Of a DNA stretch of 34,123 bases, positions 16,198 to 34,123 are shown piece by piece; the stretch's first letter is position 1; each line of letters begins with the position of its first letter. The notes below the pieces were generated by a model. It was not told the origin of the DNA and made no database searches. It saw nothing but the letters and a program-made list of their open reading frames with translations. Location: positions 1 to 34,123 of the forward strand of contig JACPIQ010000052.1 of the NCBI GenBank assembly GCA_016188005.1, in the 5' to 3' direction. The translations under genes and the position numbers were made by a program. This DNA is from Candidatus Rokuibacteriota bacterium. GTDB lineage: Bacteria; Methylomirabilota; Methylomirabilia; Rokubacteriales; CSP1-6.

Positions 16198-16221
16198 TAG
16201 CGTCGAGAGCGCTGAACACGG

Positions 16222-16387
16222 GGCGGGGAAGGAGACGGACGGGGAAGTGGCCGCTGCGGGTCGAGGCGATGCGAGTGGCCCACGGTCAACATGCCAGGAG
16301 GCATGGCGGGGAAGGAGACGGACGGGGAAGTGGCCGCTGCGGGTCGAGGCGATGCGAGTGGCCCACGGTCAACATGCCAGGAGGCAT
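16222..16387 (+). repeat. 83-bp perfect tandem duplication
   Basis: Two adjacent identical 83-bp units, 16222-16304 and 16305-16387, beginning GGCGGGGAAGG and ending CAGGAGGCAT. They lie between the DUF4440-like gene and the DUF1059 gene. No coding gene is recognised in either unit. Perfect identity points to a recent duplication. Confidence 0.95.
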
Positions 16388-16391
16388 GTTG
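16370..16391 (+). promoter_or_regulatory. hairpin just upstream of the DUF1059 gene
   Basis: A 9-bp perfect stem, CAACATGCC pairing with GGCATGTTG, closed by an AGGA loop. It spans the end of the second 83-bp unit. The first unit forms only a 6-bp version. The hairpin ends 18 nt before the DUF1059 start, and the gene's own GAGGAGG site lies in between, so it could affect translation or mRNA stability. Confidence 0.5.
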
Positions 16392-19407: not shown

Positions 19408-19416
19408 GGGGGGCGG

Positions 19417-20406
19417 TCAGCGGAAGAGCGCCTCCCCGGTCCGGCTGAGCATCGGCACGCCCCGGACCTCCTGGTCGAAGAGCGGCACCACCGCCCGCAC
19501 GCTGCCGTCGAACTTCTCGCGGATCGTCCCGAGGTGCTCGTCCTGCATCTGCATGCGATTGAGGACGAACTCGGGCACCTGGCTCCCCATGGCCTGGCGG
19601 TCGAGGACCATGTTCACGATCACGCCGCCGACCGGGATGCCGAAGTCGTGGAACCAGCCGATGAAGCGGGTGATCACCGCGATGGGCAGGGCCTCGGGGA
19701 GCGTGACGAAGAAGAACGCCGTGCGGGCGGTGTCGGTCAGCAGCTGGCGGGCCTGGCCCATCCGCGTCCTGAACTGCAGCAGGTACGCGAGCAGCGGGTC
19801 CTCCTCCTTCTTCTTGGTGAAGGAGAGCATCTCGCGGAGCGTGCGCGCCTCCTCGCGGGACTTGAGCATCTTCTCCACCCACAGCGCGTACACCTTGGAC
19901 ATCCCGAGGAGCCGCCGGGCGTTGGCGGTCGGCGCCGTGTCGAACACGTAGACGTCGTACTCCCGCTTCAGCATGAGGTCGACCATGTTCTCGAACATGG
20001 CCGACTCCTCGAAGGCGGGGTTCATGGTGGCCGACTCGACGAAGTCGTCGGCCTGGGTCTTGATGTCGGCGAACTTGAGGAACCACTGGATCTTCTCGCG
20101 GATGTCCCGCTTCGAACGCTCGATGGTCTCGCGCGTGTCGATCTCGTAGGCCCAGAAGTTGGGGGCGCCGCTGACCTCCGTGTGCCCGCCGGACACATCC
20201 TGCCCCAGCAATCCCGACAGGCTGTGCACGGGGTTGGTCGAGGCCAGAAGCGTGCGCCGCCCCTGGCCGCTGAGCCACAACGCCGTGGCGCCCGCCATCA
20301 CGGTCTTCCCGACGCCGCCCTTGCCGCCGAAGAAGACGAACCGGAGATCGGGGTGCTCCTGGAGATACCGCCGCATGGAGGTGGAGATCTCGAGCGTCGC
20401 GCTCAT
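19417..20406 (-). CDS. ArsA/Get3-like ATPase, second copy (switch I Asp to Asn)
   Basis: A soluble P-loop ATPase of 329 aa. The deviant Walker A is FGGKGGVGKTV (about 26-36). Switch II is intact, DTAPT at 156-160. Switch I, which reads DPAHN in yeast Get3 with the catalytic Asp57, reads NPVHS here, so the catalytic Asp is Asn58. In Get3 the corresponding D57N change is known to stop hydrolysis. There are no Cys, so neither the ArsA metalloid site nor the Get3 zinc CxxC is present. A role in arsenite export is therefore unlikely. ATGA overlap with the first ATPase gene indicates coupled translation and probably a heteromer. Last gene of the six-gene run. Confidence 0.88.
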   Translation of the reverse strand: MSATLEISTSMRRYLQEHPDLRFVFFGGKGGVGKTVMAGATALWLSGQGRRTLLASTNPVHSLSGLLGQDVSGGHTEVSGAPNFWAYEIDTRETIERSKRDIREKIQWFLKFADIKTQADDFVESATMNPAFEESAMFENMVDLMLKREYDVYVFDTAPTANARRLLGMSKVYALWVEKMLKSREEARTLREMLSFTKKKEEDPLLAYLLQFRTRMGQARQLLTDTARTAFFFVTLPEALPIAVITRFIGWFHDFGIPVGGVIVNMVLDRQAMGSQVPEFVLNRMQMQDEHLGTIREKFDGSVRAVVPLFDQEVRGVPMLSRTGEALFR

Positions 20407-21395
20407 GAGCGCCCTCCCTCGCCGTCGGCGAACAGCCGATGGGCCAGCCGCTCGATCATCCCGAGGCCGGTCACGTCGCGCTCCATCTCGGGCACGTAGG
20501 CCAGGACCCGATCGCCGAACGCCTGCTTGATGGCGCCCAGGTACCGGTCCTGCATCGCAATTCGGTTCTGGAGGTAGGCCGGGGTGCCGGGGCTGCGCAG
20601 CTCTGGCGGCAGCACCCGGTTGACCACGTAGCCGGAGATGGGCACGTCGAACTTGGCGAAGAGCGCAGCCGCCTTCTGGGTGTCGAGGATGATCATCTCC
20701 TCGGGCACCACCACGAAGAAGAAAGCGGTGCGGGTGCTGTCGGTGAGGATCCGCGAGGAGGCGTTGATCCGGTCCTTGATGTAGTTCAGTTCCTTGAGGA
20801 TCTGGTCCTCCTGCACCGTCTCCTCCCGCCGCATGGTGGCGGCGACCTGATCGTACTGCTGCATCTCCTCCCGGAGCTTGGTGATCTTGTTGATCCACTC
20901 GTCGTAGACCTTGGCCATGCTGAGGTAGTAGAGCGCGTGCCCCAGCGGGACCAGGTCGTAGATGTAGTAGTCGTAGTCGCCCTGGACGATGATGTCGACC
21001 ACGGCGTCGAAGATCGCGCTCTCCTCCATGGCCGGCTCGGCCGAGGCCGCGGCGATGTAGTTGTCGATCTCTTCCGGCACCTTCTCGAAGCCGTACATGT
21101 CCAGGATCTTCTTGCGGATCTCCTCCTGGTACTCGCGGATCCTGCGGTCCGCATCCACCTCCTGGGCCCAGAGGTTGTCCATGATCTTCACGGGGCCCTT
21201 GCCGAAGATGTCCCGCTGGAAGATGTCGGAGAGGCTGGCCTGGGGATCCACCGAGAAGAGGAGCACGCGCTTGCCCTGGCTGGCCAGCCAGAAGGCGCTG
21301 GTGGCCGAGAGCGTGGTCTTGCCGAGCCCGCCCTTGCCGCCGAACATGATGTACCGCCGGTCCGGTTGACTCTCGAAGACGGTCTTGAGGGCCAT
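20403..21395 (-). CDS. ArsA/Get3-like ATPase, first copy (switch II degenerate)
   Basis: A protein of 330 aa, paralogous to the next gene. Walker A is FGGKGGLGKTT (about 18-28). Switch I keeps the catalytic Asp50 (VDPQASLSD) but lacks the following His/Asn of DPAHN. Switch II, DTAPT in Get3 and in the paralogue, reads DLVPLGHAL (Asp147). There are no Cys residues. The middle of the protein is long, helical and charged (REYQEEIRKKILDMYG, KLREEMQQYDQVAAT), in the place where Get3 binds hydrophobic clients. It sits 10 nt after the small protein gene at 21406 and overlaps the second ATPase by 4 nt. Likely function is nucleotide-driven handling of a membrane or hydrophobic partner; this is inference. 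Confidence 0.88.
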   Translation of the reverse strand: MALKTVFESQPDRRYIMFGGKGGLGKTTLSATSAFWLASQGKRVLLFSVDPQASLSDIFQRDIFGKGPVKIMDNLWAQEVDADRRIREYQEEIRKKILDMYGFEKVPEEIDNYIAAASAEPAMEESAIFDAVVDIIVQGDYDYYIYDLVPLGHALYYLSMAKVYDEWINKITKLREEMQQYDQVAATMRREETVQEDQILKELNYIKDRINASSRILTDSTRTAFFFVVVPEEMIILDTQKAAALFAKFDVPISGYVVNRVLPPELRSPGTPAYLQNRIAMQDRYLGAIKQAFGDRVLAYVPEMERDVTGLGMIERLAHRLFADGEGGRS

Positions 21396-21405
21396 GAGAC
21401 GCCCC

Positions 21406-21684
21406 TCAGCCGAGCACGTCGGTGACGTCGCGCTCGCGCAGCATCCGCCGCTTCCAGGACGCGATCTGAGGCGTGACGTACGGCAAGAGCCGCAGCGAGT
21501 AGTAGGGCGGCAGGATCGGGATGCCGAGCAGGTCGCCCATGGTGATGAGGATGAACAGGTGCTCCATGCTCGCCCGCGTGCGCACCGCGTGGCGGGTCAT
21601 CTCGTGGGAGGACATCCCATAGACGATGTCCTTGAAGACGCTCAGGAACCCTCCGCGCTTCTTGCCCGGGACCTCGTTCGCCAT
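21406..21684 (-). CDS. small conserved protein of unknown function, paralogue 1
   Basis: A protein of 92 aa that I do not recognise as a named family. Its core reads SHEMTRHAVRTR, then a hydrophobic stretch HLFILITMGDLLGIPILPP, then YSLRLLPYV and a basic end (ASWKRRMLRERD). The neighbouring 97-aa protein shares the same pattern nearly throughout, so the two arose by duplication. The hydrophobic part is too broken by Gly, Asp and Pro for a plain transmembrane helix but could be a hairpin dipping into the membrane. GGAGAG lies 6 nt before the ATG. It sits 10 nt before the first ATPase gene, so it may be a client or regulator of the ArsA/Get3-like pair. Confidence 0.75.
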   Translation of the reverse strand: MANEVPGKKRGGFLSVFKDIVYGMSSHEMTRHAVRTRASMEHLFILITMGDLLGIPILPPYYSLRLLPYVTPQIASWKRRMLRERDVTDVLG

Positions 21685-21697
21685 TGTTCTCTCCGTC

Positions 21698-21991
21698 CTA
21701 GAGCCCGTGGAGATCGAACTCGTCCTTTTCCCAGAACTCCCTCCGTCGCGCCACGTGCCGTTTCCATGTCGCGACCTCCGGCACCACGTACGGCAGGAGC
21801 CGCAGTGAGTAGATCGGCGGCAGCACCGGCACGCCGATCAGGTCGCCGAACGTCACCACCATGAACACCGCCTCCAGCTCGTGACGCATCTCCACGGCGT
21901 GTCGGGCGAACTCGTAGCCCATCAGGCCGTGGAGGAACTTGGAGGCGGCCTCCGTGAGACTCGCGAGGCGTGCTGTCAGGCTCCGGGACAT
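21698..21991 (-). CDS. small conserved protein of unknown function, paralogue 2
   Basis: A protein of 97 aa, homologous to the protein at 21406. Shared positions include RHAVxxR, FGDLIGVPVLPP, YSLRLLPYV and ATWKR. It differs in an N-terminal amphipathic part (SLTARLASLTEAASKFL) and an acidic-aromatic C-terminus (REFWEKDEFDLHGL). The ATG at 21991 has only a weak ribosome binding site, and no better start exists nearby. It lies 62 nt behind cstA and 13 nt before the paralogue. Whether the two form a heterodimer matching the ATPase heterodimer cannot be said from sequence, but the paired duplication is suggestive. Confidence 0.72.
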   Translation of the reverse strand: MSRSLTARLASLTEAASKFLHGLMGYEFARHAVEMRHELEAVFMVVTFGDLIGVPVLPPIYSLRLLPYVVPEVATWKRHVARRREFWEKDEFDLHGL

Positions 21992-22053
21992 CCGTTCCGG
22001 CGCCGAGGGACTCTCGTGGCCCCCCGGCGCCCCGTCCGCGACACCGTCCTGGG

Positions 22054-23847
22054 TCAGGCCCGCGCGGCAGCCGGTCGGGGCTGCGGGGCGGGCTGGTGGC
22101 GGTAGCGCTGGAACGCCCGCCACCCGTCGATGCCGATGATGATCGCCGCCGCCACCAGCAGCAGCGCCACCAGCACCATGAGGCCGGACCCGATGACCGG
22201 GATGACCCGGCCCGCCGCCATGTTGGGCTGGTACACGTTGAAGTAGATGTTGCTGGCCGTCACCACGAGGGCGGCCAGCGTGGTGAGGTACATGAAGATG
22301 GCCGGCAGCCCGGCGTACAGCCAGTTCTTGCCGACCGACGCGAGCCACACGGTCACCAGCAGCAGCGACAGCGCGGCCATGAGCTGGTTGGCGCCGCCGA
22401 ACAGCTGCCAGAGGTACACCCAGGTGCCCGTCAGCACCAGCAGGATGGCCAGCGCGATCGACACGAGCGAGGCCACGTGCTGGTTGCGGACCGGCGGGAT
22501 GGCGTCGCCCAGCCACTCGCTGAGCGTGACCCGCTGCACGCGAAAGATGAGCTGGGTGACGACGAGCACGATGACGATGAACGCCGCGAAGGCCAGCGAC
22601 GTCGCGTATTCCATGGGCACGCCCCAGACGCTGATGAAGCCGCCCAGCCCGGTGGCGAAGGCGGCGACCGGTGCGCCCTTGGCACCGACGGAGACGGCCA
22701 GCAGGGCCAGCAGGCCCAGCAGGAACTCGGCCAGCATCGAGCCGCCGCCGACCGGGAGCATGTCGGCCTCGTTCTCGATCTGCCGGGCGGTGCCGACCGC
22801 GCCGAACAGCGCGTGCCAGCCCGAGATGGCCCCGCACGCGATGGTGACGAAGAGCATCGGCCAGAGCGGCATCATGCCGGACGGGCCGAGCTGCGGGTTC
22901 CAGCCCTTGAACGCCGGGATCACGAACCGCGCCACCTCCGGCTTGACGAAGCCGGCGACCGCCGCGCCCACCAGGCCCAGGACCATGGCGGTGGCCGTGA
23001 TCCAGAAGCCGACGTACACCACCGGCTGGGCCATGCGCCAGATCGGCAGCACCGACCCCGCATAGCAGAACGCGCAGATGGCCAGCGCCCAGAAGAGGAG
23101 ACTCGGCATGATCTTCGCCTCGGCCCCCTTGAAGTTGGCCAGCGTCGGGTCGAAGTAGGTGACGATGGGCGCGCCGCCGAAGAGGCCGTTGAGGCCCCCG
23201 TTGAGCGTCCTGAACAGCGTTTCTGTCCAGGGGCCGGCGAGGATGGCCACCATCGTGATACCGACGGTGAGGAGCGTCGCTCCCACGAGCCCCGTCCGCC
23301 ACCGATACAGCATCTGGCCCAGGAGGAGACCCATGGCCGTGAGCACGATCACGCCGAACTGGGTCCGCGGCTGCGACTCCAGCACCGTCGCCATGATGCC
23401 CGTGAAGGCGCCGGCCACCAGCAGCAGGTAGAAGAAGATGAACACGAAGAGGATCGTGCGCGTGCGGGGAGAGACCAGGCGATGGGCGATGGCCGAGAGG
23501 CTGTTGCCCTCGTTCCGGACGGAGATCACGATGGCGCTGTAATCGCTCGCCCAGCCCATGAAGGACACGCCCAGCACCAGCCAGATGATCGACGGCAGCC
23601 AGCCCCAGAGACTGGCCGCGACGATGGCGCCCACGATCGGGCCCGCCGCCGCGATGGACTTGAAGTGATAGCCGAAGAGGATGTTGCGGTTCGTGGGCAT
23701 GAAGTCCACACCATCCATGTACAGGGTGGCGGGAGTCGCCCGCTTGGGATCGGACTGGATGACGTGGCGGTCGATCCGCCGCGCGTAAAGCGTGTACGCG
23801 AGGTACACCGTTACCGCCCCGATGATGACCGCCAGTAACGTGTTCAT
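22054..23847 (-). CDS. cstA: carbon starvation protein CstA family transporter
   Basis: An inner-membrane protein of 597 aa with about 16 hydrophobic segments. Family marks include NRNILFGYHFKSIAAAGPI, VGAIVAASLWGWLPSIIW, a conserved YSAIVISVRNEGNSL loop, and AGSMLAEF-like GGGSMLAEFLLG in the second half. CstA proteins import pyruvate and possibly peptides, and the E. coli member is induced on carbon starvation. AAGGAG stands 5 nt before the ATG. In E. coli a small YbdD protein accompanies CstA; here the neighbours are a thioredoxin-like selenoprotein upstream (61 nt) and two small unknown proteins downstream. Co-directional spacing suggests one operon. Confidence 0.92.
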   Translation of the reverse strand: MNTLLAVIIGAVTVYLAYTLYARRIDRHVIQSDPKRATPATLYMDGVDFMPTNRNILFGYHFKSIAAAGPIVGAIVAASLWGWLPSIIWLVLGVSFMGWASDYSAIVISVRNEGNSLSAIAHRLVSPRTRTILFVFIFFYLLLVAGAFTGIMATVLESQPRTQFGVIVLTAMGLLLGQMLYRWRTGLVGATLLTVGITMVAILAGPWTETLFRTLNGGLNGLFGGAPIVTYFDPTLANFKGAEAKIMPSLLFWALAICAFCYAGSVLPIWRMAQPVVYVGFWITATAMVLGLVGAAVAGFVKPEVARFVIPAFKGWNPQLGPSGMMPLWPMLFVTIACGAISGWHALFGAVGTARQIENEADMLPVGGGSMLAEFLLGLLALLAVSVGAKGAPVAAFATGLGGFISVWGVPMEYATSLAFAAFIVIVLVVTQLIFRVQRVTLSEWLGDAIPPVRNQHVASLVSIALAILLVLTGTWVYLWQLFGGANQLMAALSLLLVTVWLASVGKNWLYAGLPAIFMYLTTLAALVVTASNIYFNVYQPNMAAGRVIPVIGSGLMVLVALLLVAAAIIIGIDGWRAFQRYRHQPAPQPRPAAARA

Positions 23848-23908
23848 CCCGTCTCCTTCCAGTGCGAGTTGGAAAGTCAGGGCACCGTCGAGGGAGGCTC
23901 CGTGGTTC

Positions 23909-24352
23909 TCACCCTCCTTTCGTGGGTCCGCCCGACCCGGCCATCGCGCCCGCCGACCGGCCCGCGGCGAGCTGTGCCGAGATCAGAGCGTCCACCTCGG
24001 AGAAGTCGAGACGGACATACGGCCCGCTGCCGACCTTGAAGGCGGGGTACCGGCGAACGCGGCCGAGGAGGGACTTGAAGAAGCCCTCGATGGACGCGGC
24101 ATCGACGAGCCGGAGGGACACGCGCGGGCCGAACTTGGCCGGAAGGGACTGGGCCCACTCCGAGAGCCGATGAAACTCCTCGTACAGGTCCTCGGGCAGG
24201 CCGGTCTCGAGCTGGTCCTGATGCACCTTGCCTCCCAACCCGGCCACCCGCCAGGTCACCTCGCAATGCGTTCAGTGCTGGTAGTGGGTGGGGACATAGG
24301 CGATGACCTCGATGGGGACCATCGGGCCGGACGGATCAGGGCGCAGACCCAT
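23909..24352 (-). CDS. thioredoxin-like selenoprotein with U-x-x-C motif (in-frame TGA at 24272-24274 read as Sec27)
   Basis: The ATG at 24352 has an ideal GGAGG 7 nt upstream. After 26 codons (MVPIEVIAYVPTHYQH is the end of this part) the frame meets TGA, then continues uninterrupted for 120 codons to the TGA at 23909-23911. The codons around the first TGA read His-Gln-His-TGA-Thr-His-Cys-Glu, so selenocysteine would form a U-T-H-C redox motif right after a beta strand, as in thioredoxin folds. The rest has a hydrophilic helix (LPEDLYEEFHRLSEWAQSL), a strand RVSLRLVDA, then GRVRRYPAFKVG with the cis-Pro-like element of the fold. A 7-bp hairpin lies 16 nt after the TGA. A gene caller would report only the 116-aa rear part from GTG 24259. 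It heads the cstA/ATPase run. Total 147 residues. Confidence 0.82.
24238..24256 (-). promoter_or_regulatory. SECIS-like hairpin for Sec insertion (thioredoxin-like gene)
   Basis: Read on the minus strand, ACCUGGC pairs over 7 bp (one G-U) with GCCGGGU around the loop GGGUG. The stem begins at the 16th nt after the UGA and the loop lies at nt 23-27. The bacterial SECIS places a small loop with a G/GU about 16-37 nt after the UGA. Further pairing of UUGC with GCAA outside the stem is possible. Paired by eye only. Confidence 0.65.
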
Positions 24353-24401
24353 AGCTGCACCTCCACGCTCCCTGGACCCATCCCGTCCCGAGAGCGGCGC
24401 T

Positions 24402-24407
24402 ATTATA
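24402..24407 (-). promoter_or_regulatory. -10 box (TATAAT) upstream of the selenoprotein-cstA-ATPase run
   Basis: A consensus TATAAT on the minus strand, 49 nt before the ATG at 24352, in DNA that is otherwise GC-rich. No matching -35 at 17 nt is clear. The overlapping TATTAT on the plus strand could serve the gene at 24450, making this a shared divergent promoter region. Confidence 0.5.
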
Positions 24408-24449
24408 CCGCCAAAGCCGGGACAAGAGGGTCCACCCGGAGGGAGGCCC

Positions 24450-24731
24450 ATGCGGCCCGAGGACTGGCAGGCTCTGGACGACGACGGGCTCGAGCGCCTC
24501 CTCGTCGAGCGATGGCTCTACCGGGGCGCCATGCTGGCCGTGATCTTCATGTCCGCCGTGATCGTCACCTGGCTCGGGGCCCGCGGTCTCAGGGGCCTGG
24601 TGGATCAGGTCACCGTCGGCGTGCTGGTGGCCCTGGGTCTGGCCGCCGGCGCGGTGGCGTTCACGATGCGGCGGCAGGACCTTCGCATCCACCTCGAGCT
24701 CCGCCACCGGCGGACGTCGCGCGGGGGCTAG
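24450..24731 (+). CDS. small membrane protein with two transmembrane helices
   Basis: A protein of 93 aa that I do not recognise. The N-terminus is hydrophilic and acidic (MRPEDWQALDDDGLERLL). Two hydrophobic helices follow, about residues 27-44 (MLAVIFMSAVIVTWLGA) and 52-70 (VGVLVALGLAAGAVAF), with a basic tail (RRQDLRIHLELRHRR). The charge pattern predicts both ends in the cytoplasm. The ATG at 24450 has GGAGGGAGG just upstream. It is divergent from the selenoprotein gene and 57 nt before the L-2-hydroxyglutarate oxidase gene. Confidence 0.7.
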   Translation: MRPEDWQALDDDGLERLLVERWLYRGAMLAVIFMSAVIVTWLGARGLRGLVDQVTVGVLVALGLAAGAVAFTMRRQDLRIHLELRHRRTSRGG

Positions 24732-24788
24732 GACCGCCCCCCCGCGCGCTCGGGGGTCGCGCGGGACGAGCGTGGTAGACTCCGGGGC

Positions 24789-25997
24789 GTGTCTCGATCC
24801 GCCGACATCGCCATCATCGGCGCCGGCATCGTCGGGCTCGCCACCGCGGTCTCGCTGAGCGAGCGGCATCCCCGCGCCCGCCTCGTCGTCCTCGACAAGG
24901 AGCCGCGCGTCGCGGCCCACCAGACCGGGCACAACAGCGGTGTCATCCACTCCGGGATCTACTACAAGCCCGGTTCCCACAAGGCCCGGCTCTGCGTGGA
25001 GGGCGCCCGGCTCATGACCGAGTTCTGCGACGCCCACGGCATCGGGTACGAGCGGTGCGGCAAGGTCATCGTGGCCACCGACGAGTCGGAGCTGCCGCGG
25101 CTCCAGGCGCTCCACGAGCGTGGCACGGCCAACGGCGTCCCGGGCCTCCGGCTCGTCTCCGGGGAGGAGGCGCGGGCGCATGAGCCGCATTGCCGGGCGG
25201 TGCGCGGGCTGCTGTCGCCTGCCACGGGGATCGTGGACTACACGCAGGTGGCCGAGGCCATGGCCGGGCTGATCGAGAAACGCGGCGCCGAGGTGGTCAC
25301 GGGCGCCAGGCTCACCGGCGCGCGGCGCGGCGCGGCGGGCTTCGTGCTCGAGACGCCGGCGGGCCCGATCGCGGCGCGCCACGTGGTCAACTGCGGGGGG
25401 CTCCACTCGGACCGCGTGGCGCGCCTCATGGGGGCCGCCCCCGATGTGCGGATCATCCCGTTCCGCGGCGAGTACTACATGCTCCGTCCCGAGCGCCGGT
25501 CCCTGGTCCGCGGGCTCATCTATCCCGTCCCGGACCCGCGCTTCCCCTTCCTGGGCGTCCACTTCACGCGGACGGTGCACAGGGACGTGGAGGCCGGTCC
25601 CAACGCGGTGCTCGCCCTCGCCCGCGAGGGGTACTCCATCGGGACGGTCCGGGTGGGCGAGGCGCTGGGCACCTTTGCCTATCGGGGGTTCTGGGCCATG
25701 GCCCGGCGCTACTGGCGGATGGGGGCCTACGAGCTCTACCGCTCGCTGAGCAAGGGGGCCTTCGTCCGGTCGCTCCAGCGGCTCGTCCCCGACATCCGGG
25801 CGGAGGACATCGCTCCCGGCGGCGCCGGCGTGCGGGCCCAGGCGGTGAGCCCGGACGGATCACTCGTGGACGACTTCAAGATCGCGCTGACGCCGGGCGC
25901 CATCCACGTGCTCAATGCGCCCTCGCCCGCCGCCACCGCGTCCATCGCCATCGGCCGGCACATCGCCAGCCTGGCGGCGGAGCACTTCGGTCTGTAA
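24789..25997 (+). CDS. lhgO: L-2-hydroxyglutarate oxidase (DAO family FAD enzyme)
   Basis: A protein of 402 aa. FAD binding is shown by IAIIGAGIVGLATAVSL at residues 7-23 and the matching acidic end of the second strand (VVLDKE). The family signature HNSGVIHSGIYYKPGS follows near residue 48. Further marks are GKVIVATDESE, SPATGIVDY, RGEYYMLRPE and VPDPRFPFLGVHFTR, all typical of LhgO. It oxidises L-2-hydroxyglutarate to 2-oxoglutarate, feeding electrons to quinone or oxygen. The GTG at 24789 is the only start close to the FAD motif. The gene is monocistronic or follows the small membrane protein; a palindromic repeat begins right at its stop. Confidence 0.92.
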   Translation: MSRSADIAIIGAGIVGLATAVSLSERHPRARLVVLDKEPRVAAHQTGHNSGVIHSGIYYKPGSHKARLCVEGARLMTEFCDAHGIGYERCGKVIVATDESELPRLQALHERGTANGVPGLRLVSGEEARAHEPHCRAVRGLLSPATGIVDYTQVAEAMAGLIEKRGAEVVTGARLTGARRGAAGFVLETPAGPIAARHVVNCGGLHSDRVARLMGAAPDVRIIPFRGEYYMLRPERRSLVRGLIYPVPDPRFPFLGVHFTRTVHRDVEAGPNAVLALAREGYSIGTVRVGEALGTFAYRGFWAMARRYWRMGAYELYRSLSKGAFVRSLQRLVPDIRAEDIAPGGAGVRAQAVSPDGSLVDDFKIALTPGAIHVLNAPSPAATASIAIGRHIASLAAEHFGL

Positions 25998-26187
25998 CAG
26001 GCCGCTGAAAAGGGCCCATCTGCGGAGGTACGGCGCCCTCGGCCGCACGCTCAACGTGGCTCGCTCACGCTCGCCCAGATCTCCACATCCGCTCACCTCG
26101 CCTCCGGCTGCGGCTCGCCAGGCGGCGTACGCCTCGCGTGCGGCCGTCGGGCGCCGCCTCGCATCTGGACCCTTTGATCGGCCTGTT
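25996..26187. repeat. 192-bp palindromic MITE-like repeat
   Basis: The ends are imperfect inverted repeats: AACAGGCCG at 25996-26004 matches the complement at 26179-26187, and similarity continues inward for about 28 nt. Further in, GGCCGCACGC occurs on both arms in inverted order. The whole segment could fold into one long hairpin and holds no gene. The left arm starts at the stop codon of the L-2-hydroxyglutarate oxidase gene. Likely a non-autonomous mobile or REP-like element. Confidence 0.65.
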
Positions 26188-26214
26188 GAGGTCTTCCCGC
26201 GACTCGAGTAGCCC

Positions 26215-26628
26215 TCAGGGCCTGGGGGCGCGGGCCTCGGCCTCGCGGATCCGGGTCTCGGCCTCGCGCGCGCGGTCCTCGGCCTCCAGCATGCGCGTGG
26301 CCAGCTGGCGGATCAGCGCCAGCGCCAGCGCCGGGTTCGAGCGCACCAGGTGCTCGAGCCGGTTGGCCGGGATCAGCATGAGCGTGACGGGCTCGGCGGC
26401 CACGGCGTCGGCCGAGCGCGGCGCGTTGCGGAAGAGCGCCAGCTCCCCGAGCAGGTCGCCCTTGCCGAGCACGCGCAGCACACGCTCCTCCGTACCGAAG
26501 CGCCGCCGGATCTCGACCTTGCCCTCGTGCACCATGAAGGCCTCGCCGTTGGCGCCGTCCCCCTCGCGGAAGATGAAGTCGCCGGGCTTGAAGGTCCTGG
26601 TGGGCACGTCCCCGATCTGACGGCTCAT
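26215..26628 (-). CDS. cyclic-nucleotide-binding (Crp-like sensor) domain protein without HTH
   Basis: A protein of 137 aa consisting of one cNMP-binding domain: RTFKPGDFIFREGDGANGEAF, then VHEGKVEIRRRF, RVLGKGDLLGELALFRNAPRSA with the phosphate-binding GELAL-x(n)-RSA loop, and a C-terminal helix (PALALALIRQLATRMLEAEDRA). The loop residues needed for cAMP or cGMP binding are present. No DNA-binding domain follows; the tail is a charged coiled coil (AREAETRIREAEARA). It may act as a regulatory subunit or scaffold. The gene is divergent from the protease-rhodanese gene with 40 nt between start codons, so regulation may be shared. Confidence 0.88.
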   Translation of the reverse strand: MSRQIGDVPTRTFKPGDFIFREGDGANGEAFMVHEGKVEIRRRFGTEERVLRVLGKGDLLGELALFRNAPRSADAVAAEPVTLMLIPANRLEHLVRSNPALALALIRQLATRMLEAEDRAREAETRIREAEARAPRP

Positions 26629-26668
26629 GCCTTGCCCTCGTGGTGTAGAATGGCCCGCGGTGCCCCCT

Positions 26669-28291
26669 ATGGTACGCCGATTCGCCCTCTCCGCGACACT
26701 GCTCCTGGCCTTCGCGGCGGGCGCCCCCGGAGCGGCCCAGGCCCAGAGGAGCCTCAGCGTGCAGGAGGCGCTGCTGCGCGCCAAGCCCGCCGTCGTGCTC
26801 GTGATCGCCGAGGTCTCCGCGGAGGTCACGCTCGACTGCGGCGGCGGGCCCACCACCATGACGCCGCCCGCCTTCCGCGAGACGGGCACCGGTTGGTTCG
26901 TGGACGGTCGCGGCTGGATCATCACCAACGGGCACGTGGTGCAGCCGGCGCACACGCCGCCGCGCTGGCTCGTCAACCAGCAGGCGCAGCGCGCCGTGAC
27001 CACGGCCTGCCTGCCGAAGGCGCTCCAGCGCCAGGGGATGACCCCGGGCGAGCGGCCGGAGCTCGAGGACGCGATCAAGCGCAAGCTCCTCGACCGGGTG
27101 CTGCCGACGACGAAGGTCAAGCTCACCCCGCAGGTGTCGGTGGTCATCTCGAGCGGTGCGCGCTTCAAGGCCGAGGTGAAGAAGTACAGCCCGCCGGTGA
27201 GCAACGATCCCGGCGCCATGTCGGGGCGGGACCTGGCGCTCCTGCACGTGCCCGGCGCGGAGTTCCCCGTGCTGCCCCTGGCCGACTCCAAGGTGGTGCA
27301 GATCGGCGACCCCGTCCACATCCTCGGCTTCCCGGGCGTCGTGCTCTCCCACGAACTGCTGAACAAGTCGGCCGGCGTCGAGGCCTCCGTGACCAACGGC
27401 GCCATCTCCGGCTTCAAGCAGGACGTGGCCAACCAGCCGGTTCTCCAGACGGACGCGCCCGCGGCCTGGGGCAACTCGGGCGGGCCCGCGGTGAACCAGA
27501 AGGGGGCCGTGCTGGGCGTCCTCACCTTCGTGTCGCTGGCGCCGGGGCCGGAGGGCTCCATCGTCCAGGGCTTCAATTTCGTCATCCCCGCGAACGCGGT
27601 GCGCGACTTCGTCAAGGACACCGAGGTGAAGCTCGAGGGGAAGAGCAAGTTCACGGAGGCCTGGTTCAGCGGGCTCCGCGAGTTCTTCAGCGACGACTGG
27701 AAGGCCGCCGCGCGGCACCTCGAGCAGGCCGACGCGCTGTTGCCGAACCTGCCCGACGTCAAGCGGGTCCTGGCCGAGGCCCGCGAGAACGTGAAGAACC
27801 CGCCGCCGCGGCCCTTCCCGTGGTTCTGGGTGGCCATCGGCGTGACCCTCGTGAGCGGGGCGGGCTATGGCACCCAGTTCGCGCTGCGCTGGCACAAGAA
27901 CCGCTACCGGATCCAGCCCTCGGAGGTGATCCGGATGCTCGAGTCGGGCAAGGCGCCCACCGTCCTCGACGTACGCAGGACGGAGGTCTACGATGCGCTC
28001 CCGCTCAAGATCCCGAACTCGGTGCGGCTGGCGCCCGAGGAATTGTCGAGCGGCGTGGGGGGGCTCGAGCTGGACACCACCCGCCCGGTGGTCGCCTACT
28101 GCACCTGACCCGACGAGGCCACGAGCGCCCGTGTGGCGCGGGACCTCCGGAAGCTGGGATTCAAGGACGTCCGGATCCTCAAGGGCGGTCTCGGCGCCTG
28201 GACCAACGCGGGGCTGCCCATCGAGACCCGCTCCGACATCTCCGCCGTGGGCCTCGAGCTCTACAAGGCGCTGGCCAGCGGCAACGTCTGA
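26669..28291 (+). CDS. membrane-anchored trypsin-like protease fused to rhodanese domain, selenoprotein (TGA at 28106-28108 read as Sec480)
   Basis: A 540-residue product. Signal peptide 1-25 (cut after AQA); trypsin-like protease domain with His89 (ITNGHVV), Asp188 (GRDLALLHV) and Ser270 (WGNSGGPAV); one membrane helix about 383-405 (WFWVAIGVTLVSGAGYG) followed by positive charges; then a cytoplasmic rhodanese domain from about 417. The rhodanese loop reads VAYCT-TGA-PDEATSARVA and the domain continues perfectly after the TGA (KLGFKDVRILKGGLGAW) to a TGA at 28289-28291. Homologous loops that I remember read YC-x-CP-x-EAT, so the TGA stands where the second Cys would be, giving C-T-U. A SECIS-like hairpin follows. 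Start at 26669 is preferred for the signal peptide; TAGAAT at 26646 may be its -10 box. Standard annotation would truncate it at 28108. Confidence 0.85.
28115..28147 (+). promoter_or_regulatory. SECIS-like hairpin for Sec insertion (rhodanese gene)
   Basis: The apical stem GCGCC/GGCGC (28125-28129 with 28135-28139) closes the loop CGUGU. It can extend through an internal loop to an outer stem, GAGGCC pairing with GG-A-CCUC, ending at 28147. The apical loop lies 22-26 nt after the UGA, almost the same distance as in the thioredoxin-like gene. Paired by eye only. Confidence 0.65.
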
Positions 28292-28312
28292 GGGGGTGCC
28301 CGAAGGCAAGAG

Positions 28313-28338
28313 GGGGAGGCCCGTTCCCGAGCCTCCCC
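28313..28338 (+). terminator. stem-loop after the protease-rhodanese gene
   Basis: An 8-bp stem GGGGAGGC/GCCTCCCC with a 10-nt loop, 21 nt after the TGA at 28289-28291. Its position supports 28291, and not 28108, as the real end of the gene. Confidence 0.6.
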
Positions 28339-28412
28339 GGTGCCTTCCCGGAACGCCCAACGGCGTTTCGGGCCCACTACGTCATGCCGGGCCCCTGTGG
28401 GGCGACCGGCGG

Positions 28413-28428
28413 CGGGCTAAAAAGCCCG
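28413..28428. terminator. short stem-loop CGGGCT-AAAA-AGCCCG
   Basis: A 6-bp stem with AAAA loop in the gene-free stretch 28292-28681. Apart from this hairpin, the terminator before it and the nrdJ-end repeat at 28538, I see nothing in that stretch. Confidence 0.4.
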
Positions 28429-28537
28429 TCCTCAGGTAGTTGGGACTGCCTGGCGATTCCACCTTCCCCCTCGCCCCAGCGGTTCGCAAGCCTCTGGTGG
28501 CCGGGGTGCGTCAGCGCCCCTGCGTCACGCCTACGAG

Positions 28538-28566
28538 CACCCCGTGGTGGTGCCGAAGGTGACGCA
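28538..28566 (-). repeat. left attachment-site-like repeat (nrdJ 3'-end remnant)
   Basis: The segment matches 33922-33950 at 28 of 29 positions, the single mismatch being at 28556. On the minus strand it reads Gly-Thr-Thr-Thr-Gly-Cys-Ser followed by a TAG stop, the same end as NrdJ. The sequence further upstream in that frame is not NrdJ, so it is an isolated scrap. Confidence 0.75.
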
Positions 28567-28681
28567 TGCGACACGGGACACCCCTGGTGCCTCTGGTGGC
28601 GCTCAGGTCCAGGAGACCACGCCATCCCTCGTGGGTGCCGGGGACATGGGAGACGGGGCCGGCCGTGAGAACACGGACATT

Positions 28682-29437
28682 TCACGGACAGTCCGCTGCG
28701 CCGGAGCACCAGGTGACCCCCCGCCAGTTCACCGCGCGCCAGGGTTGGGCAGCCGCCAGCGGGCGGGGATGACGACCTTCGGTCTGAGTGAGCGGGCCAA
28801 GACCGTCCGCCTCGAATCGGCAGCGGGGGGGTCCTTGGGAGTGGCGGCGAACCGTGTAGGTTCTGAGGGTCCGCTTCACCGTGAGTCGGTACTCCCTGTA
28901 GGACTTCCAAGCGGCATCGATCAGCGGTCCTCGCTCCTTCCAGTGCTGATCATAGATCGCGGGATCGATGAGGTCTGGGTAGAATTTCAGCTCCCCTTCA
29001 CGGAACGCAAAGAAGTGTGCCGCGACGAAGGCGTCAACAGCGCTGAGGGCATGCACCAAGGCGAACGTCCGCTTGTGAAGACGTCGGTGAAGGTACCTGT
29101 TCTCCACGAGCCTGAAGAAACGACAGAACTTCCCTACCCGGAGAGCGTCCTGGAGTTGGCAGTGCCCGTTCCAGACGTCGGAGTTCAGGAACGCATGGAG
29201 GAACTGCTCATCGATGAGGCGATCCGATGCACGAAAGATCTTCAAGTCGTGCTCGGTACCACGGCCAGCGAGAAGGCGCGTCGCGAGGGAGTATCGGAAG
29301 GCAAGCACAACAGCCAGGGCAGTACCGAGGACCAGCACCAACAACTGCAAGAGGGGAACGGACTCCCGGAGGGGCTTCACGTAGGGCGACAGGAACTCGG
29401 TCCAAACGCCGGCAATGGCATCAAGTATCGTTGCCAC
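28682..29437 (-). CDS. membrane-anchored protein of unknown function
   Basis: A protein of 251 aa, starting at GTG 29437 with GGGGAG just upstream. The N-terminal 20 residues are amphipathic, then one membrane helix (VPLLQLLVLVLGTALAVVLA, about 28-47). The cytoplasmic part is rich in aromatic and charged residues (FCRFFRLVENRYLHRRLHKR, AHFFAFREGELKFYPDLIDP) and probably helical. I do not recognise the family. After about residue 190 (RTLRTYTVRRH) the composition changes, and the last 50 residues, rich in Arg, Trp and Pro, may be read-through into unrelated DNA. Lower GC at many third positions than the flanking genes supports transfer. Located just inside the left island repeat. Confidence 0.6.
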   Translation of the reverse strand: MATILDAIAGVWTEFLSPYVKPLRESVPLLQLLVLVLGTALAVVLAFRYSLATRLLAGRGTEHDLKIFRASDRLIDEQFLHAFLNSDVWNGHCQLQDALRVGKFCRFFRLVENRYLHRRLHKRTFALVHALSAVDAFVAAHFFAFREGELKFYPDLIDPAIYDQHWKERGPLIDAAWKSYREYRLTVKRTLRTYTVRRHSQGPPRCRFEADGLGPLTQTEGRHPRPLAAAQPWRAVNWRGVTWCSGAADCP

Positions 29438-29747
29438 AACGCTCCCCCTTCGCGGTGAGCATTCTAGCGCGACTCGTCCTCCGACGGCCCCACGATTCCG
29501 GGCTTTGGCCCCCGCCCAAGGCCGTCCGTGCCCGGCCCGGTGATCCTGGCAATCGGAGCGCGCGCCCCGCCGGTAATCCGTCGCCACGACGGCGCTACAT
29601 CGCGAATCGGTACGGGGACGACGGGCTAGCATCATGGGCTCGACTCGTCCTCCGGCCCCTGGGCCGGCCCCCGAGTCCCCCTACCGATTTTGTAGCCAAG
29701 CAGGGGGCTGGCGACAACGGGAACGTCGTAGCAACGGGGCCGGAGCC
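29438..29747. other. intergenic stretch without supported gene
   Basis: No convincing coding frame in either direction. A 14-nt sequence CGACTCGTCCTCCG occurs twice, near 29468 and 29640, on the same strand. Composition is less GC-biased than the chromosomal part. Confidence 0.5.
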
Positions 29748-29888
29748 GTGAGCGCCCCAGGTATCATCGAGTTCATCACCGACCCGGAATTTCTCGGGCT
29801 GACCCGATCCGCCGCGCAGGAGACGCTGCCGCAGGCGATCTACGGACTGCCCGTGTCCGACCATCACCTCGACCGTAGCCGCCTCTAG
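29748..29888 (+). pseudogene. terminase-like N-terminal fragment
   Basis: A 46-aa frame from GTG 29748. The stretch IIEFITDPEFLGLTRSAAQ followed by AIYGLPVSD resembles the N-terminal region of phage-type large terminases (a helix ending in SPAQ and a KAIYGLPL segment, from memory). The frame ends at 29888 before any ATPase motif. It is probably a prophage scrap within the island; a short unrelated ORF is the alternative. The 365 nt after it hold only the promoter at 30134. Confidence 0.4.
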
Positions 29889-30133
29889 GCGGGCTGCCAA
29901 CGGCCTTCAGGAGGTTGCGGGGACCGGATGGGCGCCTTCAGCGGATGATCGACTTGGCGCTTCGAGCGCCGTTGGCGGAGTGCACGTCGAATCTGTGGGG
30001 GCTGGCCCGCCGCAGCCTGGGCTCCTGTAGCCCCTCCTGATGAATGACGGCGGGGCGGTGAGCGCGCGCCGTGCCGGCCGCCCCTCGGGGCAGCGCTCCG
30101 CCCCGGCCCTCTCAGAAGCCCAATGGGGACCTG

Positions 30134-30162
30134 TTGACAATCGCCTACGGGAACACCTAAGG
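30134..30162 (+). promoter_or_regulatory. possible promoter (TTGACA -35)
   Basis: A consensus TTGACA at 30134-30139 and a weak -10 region at about 30157-30162 (CTAAGG), 17 nt apart. It points toward the secreted protein gene at 30254. Confidence 0.4.
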
Positions 30163-30253
30163 TTTCCTCACGGCCCTGTGTCACGGCCGGTGGGTGCTGG
30201 GGGCTGGCGTTGTTCCCCGACAGAGAGCGATGGGACGCGCGAGGAGGGGGCTC

Positions 30254-31240
30254 ATGCTTCGATCAATGGCCGCCCTGTGGTTGTCAGCAGTTCTACTCGG
30301 CCTGCCCCCCTTGGCCAGTGGGGCGGACGAGGAGCCGGTAGATATCGACGCCGAGGTCGCGCGGCTCACGCAGGACCTCGCGGACGCGGGCATCCGCGGG
30401 GCGCAGTGTTTGGAGGCGGCCCGCGCCAGCAGCACTTATGCCAGCTCATCAAGCTCAAGTTCCTATCGGAGCGACTCCACCTCGACATTCGACACGACGG
30501 ACAGGACGAGGAGGTCTCGCCCCAGCGCCGGAAGCCGGGCAAGGGCGAGCACGTCCACGAGCACGTATACGAGCAGCGGCAGCGGGTCCAGTCAGGGCAG
30601 CTATTCCAGCAGCCTCTCTCCGACGCCGCAGATGCGGATCACGGGCTGCCGCGAACAGGCCAACGGCTCTCGTCAGATAATCCGAGCCTCGACCCAGCAC
30701 GCGAAGACGGACCCTGCGGCATTCGCGGCCATTGTGCGCGTGAACCGGGTCCAGGAGCGGAAGCTCCGAGCGCAGCAGGCCGCCGCACTTGAGCGGGCGC
30801 TCCTCGCCGTGCGCCAGGACCTCGAGGCCCTCATGTCGGCTTCGCCGCCTTCGATGGGGATGGAGGTGTTCTCCGGTCGCCTGGAGTCACTAGAGCAGGG
30901 CGTGCGTTCCCTGTCGGGAATGGTCCCTTCGGACGGCACCGGCCCGCAGATGGTCGAGACGATCCAGCGGGCAGCCAGAGCGTTCCGCGCCGCGCGGGAT
31001 CGCTGGTCACAGGGCGAGGGGCAAGCGGAGGAGGTGGCGAGGCTCGAGCATGAGATCAAGGAGACACGGCAGAAGCTGGCGAGCCGGGAGTCCTTCGTGG
31101 CGCGCGCGGAACTCGACGCGCACGAACATAACCTGAAGCAGCAGAAGGGCCACCTCAGCCGCTCGACCCGGCAGAGCGAGGCCGCATGGCGCGATGCAGT
31201 GCCGGCAGGGAAGGCGGCATTCGCCAGCCTGGGGCGGTAG
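30254..31240 (+). CDS. secreted serine-rich coiled-coil protein of unknown function
   Basis: A protein of 328 aa. The ATG at 30254 has GAGGAGGGGG a few nt upstream and is followed by a signal peptide (LRSMAALWLSAVLLGLPPLA) with a cut after ASG. A short helical part (DIDAEVARLTQDLADAG) leads to a low-complexity Ser/Thr/Tyr-rich segment (about residues 58-130; SSSSSSSYRSDSTSTF and STSTYTSSGSGSSQG). Residues from about 150 to the end are long helices with heptad-like spacing (VQERKLRAQQAAALERALL, VARLEHEIKETRQKLASRES). Cys45 and Cys132 or so might pair. Resembles envelope or surface-structure proteins; no family recognised. Probably island cargo. Confidence 0.7.
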   Translation: MLRSMAALWLSAVLLGLPPLASGADEEPVDIDAEVARLTQDLADAGIRGAQCLEAARASSTYASSSSSSSYRSDSTSTFDTTDRTRRSRPSAGSRARASTSTSTYTSSGSGSSQGSYSSSLSPTPQMRITGCREQANGSRQIIRASTQHAKTDPAAFAAIVRVNRVQERKLRAQQAAALERALLAVRQDLEALMSASPPSMGMEVFSGRLESLEQGVRSLSGMVPSDGTGPQMVETIQRAARAFRAARDRWSQGEGQAEEVARLEHEIKETRQKLASRESFVARAELDAHEHNLKQQKGHLSRSTRQSEAAWRDAVPAGKAAFASLGR

Positions 31241-31464
31241 GGCCGCCTTCCTCCACTTTCCCCGCCCGCCGAGCTGAAGGGGTTTGGCTCGGGCCGGCCG
31301 TCGGGCTGGGAACGTTCATAGGGGTGGCGGGGACGGGTCTGGTGACCCCAGGGCTGGGGCTGGACCCGGGCCATCCGGGCGACCCCTAGAGCCTCTTGAC
31401 TACCCTCCTCAGGATTGGCCAGACTCACGCCACTGCGTGTAGACTGGATTAGGGGCGCCGACGG

Positions 31465-31743
31465 GTGCGGTTTGAATGGGATGCTGCGAAGGCAGCGTCG
31501 AACCTCGCGAAACACGGTGTTTCATTCGAAGAGGCGAGCACGGTGTTCGGCGATCGGCTGGCCACGACCGTCCTTGATCCGGACCATTCCGTCGGCGAGG
31601 AGCGTTGGCTCACCACGGGGCTGTCGCGCGAGCGCAGACTCGTGATCCTTTGGCATACGAACCGAGAGGAGACGACAATCCGCATCATCGGTGCGCGGTT
31701 GCCCACACCCAGTGAGCGGAGGACCTATGAGTCAGGACAATAG
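31465..31743 (+). CDS. brnT: BrnT family toxin
   Basis: A protein of 92 aa, the usual BrnT length. Family marks: FEWDAAKAASNLAKHGVSFEEA at the N-terminus, FGDRLATTVLDPDHS, ERWLTTGLS, and the strand RRLVILWHTNREETTIRIIGAR (broken here for reading) ending in the Arg-rich RxxPSERRTYE. BrnT has a RelE-like fold and cuts RNA. The conserved His in LAKHGVSF and the Arg in IIGARLP are present, so the toxin looks active. GTG start. The antitoxin gene overlaps its 3' end by 17 nt, an order (toxin first) that is usual for brnTA. Confidence 0.88.
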   Translation: MRFEWDAAKAASNLAKHGVSFEEASTVFGDRLATTVLDPDHSVGEERWLTTGLSRERRLVILWHTNREETTIRIIGARLPTPSERRTYESGQ

Positions 31744-31975
31744 CCAGGACGAGATGCGGCCCGAGTACGACATTCGAGGCGGAGTGCGGGGGAAGTACTT
31801 CGACCGGTACCGCGAGGGGATGAGAATCGACGTCCCGCCGACGCCCTTTGTCATGACCGCGAGCGGCGTCAACGCCCTCCAAGATGTCGGCATCTCGCGG
31901 AGCCTTCCGGGTTCCCCCGCCCAGAGCCTAAGAATCGAGATCGCTAAGGCCACACCCATCGCGCCCAACCCATGA
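31727..31975 (+). CDS. antitoxin partner of BrnT
   Basis: A protein of 82 aa. The N-terminal EMRPEYDIRGGVRGKYFDRY is the common start of antitoxins that accompany BrnT-type toxins. The C-terminal half (IDVPPTPFVMTASGVNALQD) differs from the usual RHH-type BrnA, so it is another subtype. GGAGG stands 5 nt before the ATG. It overlaps the toxin gene by 17 nt and the next gene by 4 nt (ATGA), indicating one translation unit of three genes. Confidence 0.72.
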   Translation: MSQDNSQDEMRPEYDIRGGVRGKYFDRYREGMRIDVPPTPFVMTASGVNALQDVGISRSLPGSPAQSLRIEIAKATPIAPNP

Positions 31976-32397
31976 AGGTCCGCCTGCTCCTCGCCCACTC
32001 TGCCGAGGTGCAAAATAGCTTGCTCTACGCACTTGGCGCCGGCTGGACGGCGATCGGTCCTGCCCCCTCGCCATTTGCCATCGCGGCAATCGTTGAAGTG
32101 GCCTGGGACGAGACCAGCCACAAGCACCGGCTTGAGATCGTCTTCGAGGATGCGGACGGTCAGCCGGTCCTCGCCTCGACCTTAGCCGGCGAGGAGCCGT
32201 TCCGGATTCCCGCCGAATTCGAAGTAGGGCGGCCACCGGGTGCCGTTCAGGGCACCTCTTTCATCATGCCGATCGCTTTGAACATCCCACCGATTCAACT
32301 GCCGGCCGGGCGGCAGTGCGTCGTGAAGGCGTGCATCAACGGCAACGTTCTCGATGAGCTCTCCTTCGTCGTTCGGCCAGCGCCACCCAGCCGTTAG
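31972..32397 (+). CDS. DUF6941-like protein
   Basis: A protein of 141 aa. The sequence KVRLLLAHSAEVQNSLLYALGAGWTAIG, read in parts, matches the start of the DUF6941 family as I remember it (LLLAD-x-A, LLY-x-LGGGW). A beta-rich remainder follows: AIVEVAWDETSHKH, LEIVFEDADGQPV and the closing FVVRPAP. Function of the family is unknown. The ATGA overlap with the antitoxin gene places it in the same transcript, which is unusual and may mean it contributes to the toxin-antitoxin unit, or is simply a passenger. Confidence 0.65.
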   Translation: MKVRLLLAHSAEVQNSLLYALGAGWTAIGPAPSPFAIAAIVEVAWDETSHKHRLEIVFEDADGQPVLASTLAGEEPFRIPAEFEVGRPPGAVQGTSFIMPIALNIPPIQLPAGRQCVVKACINGNVLDELSFVVRPAPPSR

Positions 32398-32499
32398 CCC
32401 CTACCCTGCCGGCGGCATCCCCCGGGGCGTAACCGGGCGCCAGGGCCGCTCCGATGGCGTTCGCTACGGCGCGCTGGACCTTCGCCCGCGTGGCGGCTC

Positions 32500-33156
32500 T
32501 CATGCGATGACAAGCCGCGATAGCGTCTGGGCGGCGAATGGGCGCCCGTTCCTGGCGAGGACACCGCGCTCGGCGAGGGCCGAACCCAGGGCCCGGAGGC
32601 TCCGGCCGGACGCCAACACCCGGATCTCCGTAAGTGCTGCTTGCTCCTGGGGCTCCGGCTCGACGTGGAGCCCATCCGACGCCAAGCGGCAGCCGTAGGG
32701 CACATGCCGGCTCACGCGCCGCCCCTGGCCCTTGAGCCGGTCTAGCACGTCGCGGGTCTTCTCGGAGATCAGCCGTCGGTAGTGCTCGGCCATGAGACCC
32801 TCGACGCCAGTCACCAGGAAGCCTGCTGATGTGTCCACCTCGATCCGCCCTCGCCCGACGACGTGGAGTTCGACGCCGCGCCGGGACCACGCCCGGAGCG
32901 CGTCGAGCATCCCGGCCAAGTCCCGAGCGAAGCGGTCGAGGTGGCCGACGACCACGCACCGGGCGCCGGTGGCGCGGACGCGCTCCGCGAGCCGTTCGAG
33001 GCGCTCACGTCGGCCACCGCGCACGCCGTCGTCCGACAAGATCTCCGCGAGGCTCCAGCCCTGAGCGCGGCAATAGTCCTCGACCTGGGCGCGCTGAAGG
33101 GCTGGTACGCGATCAAGGGGATTTTCCCGCGCCTGACCGCGGCCGTTGGCCAACAC
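32500..33156 (-). pseudogene. serine recombinase/resolvase lacking its N-terminus
   Basis: A frame of 218 aa. Recognisable parts are ALQRAQVEDYCRAQGWSL, then VVGHLDRFARDLAGMLDAL (the region after the catalytic core), LMAEHYRRLISEKTRDVLDRL and the C-terminal recombinase domain, RRVSRHVPYGCRLASDG to FAAQTLSRLV. What is missing is the first strand with the catalytic Ser (Y-x-R-x-S). The first 15 residues (MLANGRGQARENPLD) are not of the family and lie within the tyrosine-integrase sequence on the other strand. The join is near 33110-33125. The enzyme should be inactive for cleavage. Confidence 0.8.
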
Positions 33157-33880
33157 CGCGCGGTCGGCGTGACGCCGGAGACGCTGCTCCGCTACGAGCT
33201 GGTCCTACGCGAGGCTGGGCTCGCGCCGGCGACCCGGCAGAACTACTTCTGGGTCCTCTAAGGCGGCCTTCAAGCTCGGGGTGCGCCATCGCCGCATGGC
33301 CCTGGTGCCCGAGTTCCCGCGGCTGGCGCCGCCGAGGAACACCCGACAGGGGTTCGTGGAGCCCGGGGTCTTCGCCGAGATCCTGCCTCACCTGCCGCTC
33401 ATCGGGCGGGAGATTGCCGCGTTCGCCTACGCCTCCGCGTGGCGCCAGGCCGAGGTCCTCGGCCTCACCTGGGATGTCGCGGCCCGGCGGGCCCAGGAGA
33501 TCCGGCTGCCGGACACCAAGAACGGCCGCCCCCGCTTGCTGGCCCTGACGGGCGAGCTGGCACGGGTCATCGAGCGCCGATGGGCGAGCCGGGTGTGGAG
33601 GACCGGATGGTTCGGTGGGTGTTCCACCACCGGGGCGGCCGGCCCGTCGCCCCCACCTCGCTCCGTAACTGGTGGCGGGAGGCAGCCGCCGCAGCCGGGC
33701 ACCCGGGGCTTCTCTTTCACGACCTTCGGCGCTCCGGCATGCGCAACATGATCCGGGCCGGCGTGACGGAGCCCGTGGCCATGTCGATGTCAGGGCACCA
33801 GAGCGCGTCGATCTTCCGTCGGTACAACATCACGTCGGTGGACGACCCCAGGCTGGGGAGACGGACAAAAGGCGGACAAT
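33110..33880 (+). pseudogene. tyrosine recombinase (phage-type integrase) with frameshifts
   Basis: Three consecutive frame pieces: FPRLTAAVGQHRAVGVTPETL to ATRQNYFWVL (to 33261); KAAFKLGVRHRRM to VIERRWASR (about 33264-33590); then VEDRMVRWVFHHRGG to the end. A single extra base near 33260 and a second frame change near 33585 separate them. All catalytic residues can be seen when the pieces are joined: Arg (ASAWRQAEVLGL), Lys (DTKNGRPR), His-x-x-Arg (FHDLRRSGM), His (SGHQSASIF) and Tyr (RRYNITS). N-terminal arm-binding domain is lost at the junction with the serine recombinase. It stands next to the right attachment-like repeat. Confidence 0.8.
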
Positions 33881-33911
33881 TTGCCGGTGGTGTGCTCCGT
33901 AAGTGTCCGCC
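33871..33911. repeat. inverted repeat GGCGGACA ... TGTCCGCC at the island edge
   Basis: Perfect 8-bp arms (33871-33878 and 33904-33911) with a 25-nt spacer, between the end of the integrase and the nrdJ stop. Might be an integrase binding site or a weak terminator for the two converging genes. Confidence 0.45.
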
Positions 33912-33914
33912 ATC

Positions 33915-34123
33915 TCAGGAACACCCCGTGGTGGTGCCGCAGGTGACGCACTTGAGGCAGGTGCCGTTGCGCACCATGGTGAACTGGCCGCAGTCACCGC
34001 AGGGGTCGCCCTCGTAGCCCTTGAGGCGGGCCTGCTCGGCGGCGGTCATCGTGCGCGCCTCCGCTGCGGCGCCGCTGCCGCCGCTCACGCGGGCCGCCGC
34101 CCGCGCGGGAGCCGGGCGCGGGG
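33915..34123 (-). CDS. nrdJ: vitamin B12-dependent ribonucleotide reductase, C-terminal end (5' part outside window)
   Basis: The frame is open to the right edge. The last residues, EQARLKGYEGDPCGDCGQ, then TMVRNGTCLKCVTCGTTTGCS and a TGA stop, are the well-known zinc-finger-like tail of class II (adenosylcobalamin-dependent) reductases; four Cys in two CxxC pairs and a final CxxCG...CS. An Ala/Gly-rich linker precedes it. NrdJ makes deoxyribonucleotides independently of oxygen. The last 29 bp are repeated at 28538, marking integration of the island at this gene's end. Confidence 0.9.
   Translation of the reverse strand, partial: PRPAPARAAARVSGGSGAAAEARTMTAAEQARLKGYEGDPCGDCGQFTMVRNGTCLKCVTCGTTTGCS
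33922..33950 (-). repeat. right attachment-site-like repeat within the nrdJ 3' end
   Basis: Matches 28538-28566 at 28 of 29 positions. It is part of the functional nrdJ gene, whose frame is kept intact, as is typical of integration sites at gene ends. Confidence 0.75.

Follow-up and report, generated by a model that had tools for sequence, protein, structure and literature searches.

An integrative element at the nrdJ 3' end in a Rokubacteria genome and the shared break of its two recombinase genes

Near one end of contig JACPIQ010000052.1 of Candidatus Rokuibacteriota bacterium (assembly GCA_016188005.1), a serine recombinase gene on the minus strand and a tyrosine integrase gene on the plus strand are truncated side by side, and the question that this locus raises is how two recombinase genes could have been broken at the same point. 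The window analyzed here is the whole contig, 34,123 bases in length. The likely answer is that an integrative element entered nrdJ, the gene for vitamin B12-dependent ribonucleotide reductase, at its 3' end, and that the two recombinase genes of the element, which would have been arranged head to head, then lost their 5' ends to a single deletion. The features of the locus are collected in Table 1.

Table 1. Features of the element and of its integration site (positions in the window)
Feature	Position	Strand	Remarks
attL	28535-28566		Repeat copy at the former nrdJ 3' end, now displaced; the nrdJ sense strand continues into TGCTCGTAG
Inserted element	28567-33918		Missing from the nrdJ locus of GWA2_70_23
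Cargo ORF	30194-31240	+	No Pfam family (Pfam search)
Cargo block	31133-32480		92% identical to a block elsewhere in GWA2_70_23 (contig 203)
BrnT-type toxin ORF (PF04365)	31465-31743	+	Pfam; antitoxin ORF not recognized
DUF6941 protein ORF	31972-32397	+	Pfam
Serine recombinase, 5'-truncated	32500-33096	-	Open frame without the catalytic N-terminus
Junction of the two truncated genes	33096/33097		
Tyrosine integrase pseudogene	33097 to ~33850	+	Arm-binding domain lost; two frameshifts
nrdJ 3' end	33915-34123	-	Vitamin B12-dependent ribonucleotide reductase; NCBIfam PRK07562, E 3e-17
attR	33919-33950		Repeat copy inside the present nrdJ 3' end, last codons; continues into TGTTCCTGA

The reading frame of the serine recombinase continues beyond the break, through the integrase gene in antisense, to a GTG at 33156, and in this extended ORF (32500-33156, minus strand) the match to the Pfam Resolvase profile (PF00239) begins at profile position 17 of 145. 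Relatives at E 1e-15 or better are present in three genomes, that of the window included, among 60 of the order, with the same result among 95 of the phylum. The full-length relatives, L029 in genome G058 (61-66% identical) and L080 in an IMG/VR contig (58%), begin with ...GYVRRSKES(G/N)A(R/K)TVSLE(D/E)Q. Both of these and L028, from a member of the same genus that appears to be Candidatus Rokubacteria bacterium GWA2_70_23 (G001 in the search set), can be aligned with the window protein no earlier than about the Q of QRAQVEDYC, codon 33094-33096. Among the 20-odd residues that the window protein lacks is the RRS-motif Ser, which we take to be the catalytic serine; the GYVRRS motif is found in L029 and L080 and is absent from the window, that is, the N-terminal serine of an active recombinase is not found there. 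The DNA match to the GWA2_70_23 gene (E 2e-128), which is also found in record MGBT01000007.1, stops at 33097. In L028, VSLEDQ precedes the start of the alignment but its own N-terminus is odd, and this copy may be imperfect too. The window protein resembles the small serine recombinases in its Resolvase match and its C-terminal ...ARNGRPF... tail, conserved in relatives, and differs from them in the loss of the N-terminal strand bearing the catalytic serine.

The integrase was analyzed with a profile of 369 positions derived from 13 full-length Rokubacteria relatives, hand-picked from 18 frames (the five omitted were partial or had no clear start). This profile matches three stretches of the window, in frames 1, 2 and 1 (positions 99-135 from 33127, 143-254 at 33260-33592 and 261-342 from 33598). 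Its N-terminal 98 positions have no match in 28000-34123, and an integrase complete with the N-terminal arm-binding domain is not found in the window. In a gap-free register with the relatives, judged by eye at the R/K-S-L position, the first integrase residue is a K at 33097-33099. The first frameshift lies within 33238-33259 (net +1 base) and the second, a net shift back, at ~33593-33597, as estimated from the spacing of the pieces. The WRQAE, TKN, HDLRR and GH..RRY motifs, all of the catalytic type, survive in these pieces, so that the decay looks recent. The catalytic set of tyrosine recombinases comprises R, K, HxxR, H and Y, and by eye this set (PF00589) can be traced across the three pieces, not in one frame. 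The nearest integrases among 95 genomes of the phylum are ~48% identical; no close relatives were detected in plasmids or in viral contigs, where 18 stretches fit a pattern and none proved to be a relative.

The first preserved bases of the two genes are immediate neighbors, and the genes point away from this junction, each missing only its 5' part. The earlier note had described a serine recombinase without its catalytic N-terminus and a frameshifted integrase without its arm-binding domain, broken at one shared point; the profiles and the full-length relatives bear out this description, including the frameshifts. The truncations are not simply the natural starts of the two proteins: full-length relatives of both begin earlier. 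The breakpoint, placed by the note at 33110-33125, has to be moved slightly to the left, to the position where the two homologies meet.

Both remnants lie within a larger structure. A repeat search of the window identified a 32-bp direct repeat (30 of 32 positions identical) whose two copies bracket 5.35 kb. Not one of 60 Markov-1 control sequences of the same length contains any such pair, and all other pairs of 32-mers with two or fewer mismatches in the window come from within a local direct repeat with a period of 83 bases (~16219-16391; the repeat itself spans 16219-16391). In GWA2_70_23, the site is empty: nrdJ runs straight into the left flank of the window, with a single copy of the 32 bp. 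On contig 34 of that genome, window positions 24771-28566 correspond to 3866-74 and positions 33919-34023 to 105-1, the two matches overlapping by exactly 32 bp (74-105, L059:74-105). Read along the nrdJ sense strand, the empty site continues into TGCTCGTAG, as attL does, and attR continues into TGTTCCTGA; hence, the element contributed a new nrdJ end of its own, and the former end was shifted to the other side. The integrase pseudogene adjoins attR. Terminal repeats, an empty site in a relative and an integrase gene beside att, the three features by which an integrative element at a gene 3' end was tested, are all found at this locus, and the repeats together with the empty site in GWA2_70_23 identify a small integrative element at the nrdJ 3' end.

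Another stretch of the window, 19411-24770 (5.36 kb, encoding an ArsA-type ATPase and a CstA-like protein), is also missing from the collinear GWA2_70_23 locus, where its flanks are ~5 bp apart; it was either gained in the genome of the window or lost from GWA2_70_23.

An assembly artefact, whether a false join at 33096/33097 or indels in the consensus that mimic frameshifts, appears highly improbable. The source is a genome bin of 5.37 Mb in 140 contigs with an estimated contamination of 4.67%, and this contig terminates inside nrdJ, all of which would make such errors conceivable; however, the flanks, the element and the att repeats form one coherent anatomy, the empty site provides independent evidence, and a pair of compensating frameshifts is what a pseudogene typically shows.

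The course of events that we favor, an integration followed by one deletion, can be outlined as follows. The element, ~5.35 kb as it now stands, would have entered the nrdJ 3' end by site-specific tyrosine recombination, presumably catalyzed by this very integrase, supplying a replacement nrdJ end and displacing the original one to the far side. It would have carried the integrase gene next to attR and, head to head with it, the serine recombinase gene. A single later deletion, as opposed to a series of changes, probably took the 5' ends of both genes along with anything between them and joined 33096 to 33097; two frameshifts would have accumulated in the integrase as well, leaving the element a fossil. 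The loci examined include no intact relative of the element, and the original head-to-head order of the genes is our inference. A deletion across the 5' ends is the simplest cause of the break, given that a single step explains why two outward-pointing genes both lack their 5' parts, and a scenario in which one element inserted into another is less favored.

Such an insertion would have placed a serine-recombinase element within the integrase gene, with the far part, including the integrase N-terminus, lost later. It would fit the origin of the two recombinases in unrelated families and the occurrence of serine recombinase relatives with no integrase of this family nearby (none is found within the stretches examined at L080, L081, L063/L070 and L065). 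The lost half would, however, be expected on the far side, and neither the region left of the serine recombinase nor the rest of the window yielded a convincing piece of the integrase N-terminal half; moreover, the serine recombinase itself is broken at the same base, which would call for an extra event. We therefore consider this scenario unlikely, and the suggestion of the earlier note that one element had broken the other finds no support. The alternative offered there, a deletion that fused two elements, fares better with regard to the deletion; as a single element between att repeats at nrdJ houses both remnants, a fusion of two elements is not required, and the deletion may be internal, between divergent genes. 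A weak match to the integrase N-terminus at 20632-20781 (plus strand; E 0.014, 23 residues) was dismissed as chance: it is antisense to the ArsA-type ATPase gene, outside the element and 12 kb away. A conserved pairing of serine and tyrosine recombinases was likewise rejected, as none of the serine recombinase loci examined contains such an integrase.

The serine recombinases of the window and of L028 diverge with a dN/dS of 0.21, and in the first 140 codons, 11 residue changes are specific to the window and 11 to L028, so that change in the window copy has been no faster than in its relative. These substitution patterns suggest a history of purifying selection and a recent break. The possibility that the truncated protein is a domesticated regulator was considered and dropped; the dN/dS value, which may mostly cover the time before the break, cannot demonstrate it.

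With regard to the cargo, the 92% identity of the shared block exceeds the 76-91% identity seen across the flanks, where the window and GWA2_70_23 share nine long collinear matches. Six element ORFs produced no match in an anti-phage defence library. GWA2_70_23 also contains a 183-base repeat (92% identical copies), one copy of which lies by the cargo block on contig 203 (L064:2220-2401) and the other on contig 7 (L063:15149-15331), 1.3 kb from the serine recombinase; at both sites, there is an ORF that, judged by eye, resembles a putative nucleotidyltransferase of the AbiEii kind.

The choice of nrdJ as the site is unusual for such an element: searches of a library of open literature returned no paper on nrdJ as an integration target. 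Four nrdJ loci from three related genomes were compared (L059-L062). The site in L059 is empty and the stretches examined in L060-L062 contain no integrase of this family, so that the nrdJ insertion stands as a single case and a hotspot is not proven. In genome G020, a nrdJ 3' end occurs on each of two contigs. The gene that is close to nrdJ in GWA2_70_23 is 3.3 kb away from it in L061 (G020) and 1.7 kb in L062 (G004), and neither interval encodes an integrase of this family. It is rather doubtful that the nrdJ 3' end represents an undescribed att site for a Rokubacteria lineage of small elements with two head-to-head recombinases of different chemistries.

The anatomy of the element has counterparts in known systems. 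Streptococcal ICEs occupy the 3' end of a housekeeping gene (rplL, guaA and others) between direct repeats of 12-54 bp, with the integrase gene mostly beside the site (PMC4701971). The element described here shares the terminal tyrosine integrase gene beside the site and the direct repeats at a gene 3' end, 32 bp in this case, and differs from those ICEs in targeting nrdJ, in its small size (~5 kb), in its decay and in that no conjugation gene was recognized among the element ORFs tested. The dusA islands have a protein-coding target, an element-derived gene end that replaces the displaced original, and imperfect direct repeats (PMC4482086). All three traits recur here, a likeness in anatomy, except that the dusA islands occupy the 5' end of their target gene whereas this element is found at the 3' end of nrdJ.

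Altogether, the element, now decayed, belongs to a known kind, and its history is one of ordinary mobile-element decay. It is plausible that nrdJ, a core metabolic gene, joins the list of integration targets. The locus offers a clear example of an integrative element becoming fixed, through insertion at a gene end followed by the loss of the 5' ends of both recombinase genes, apparently in one event.
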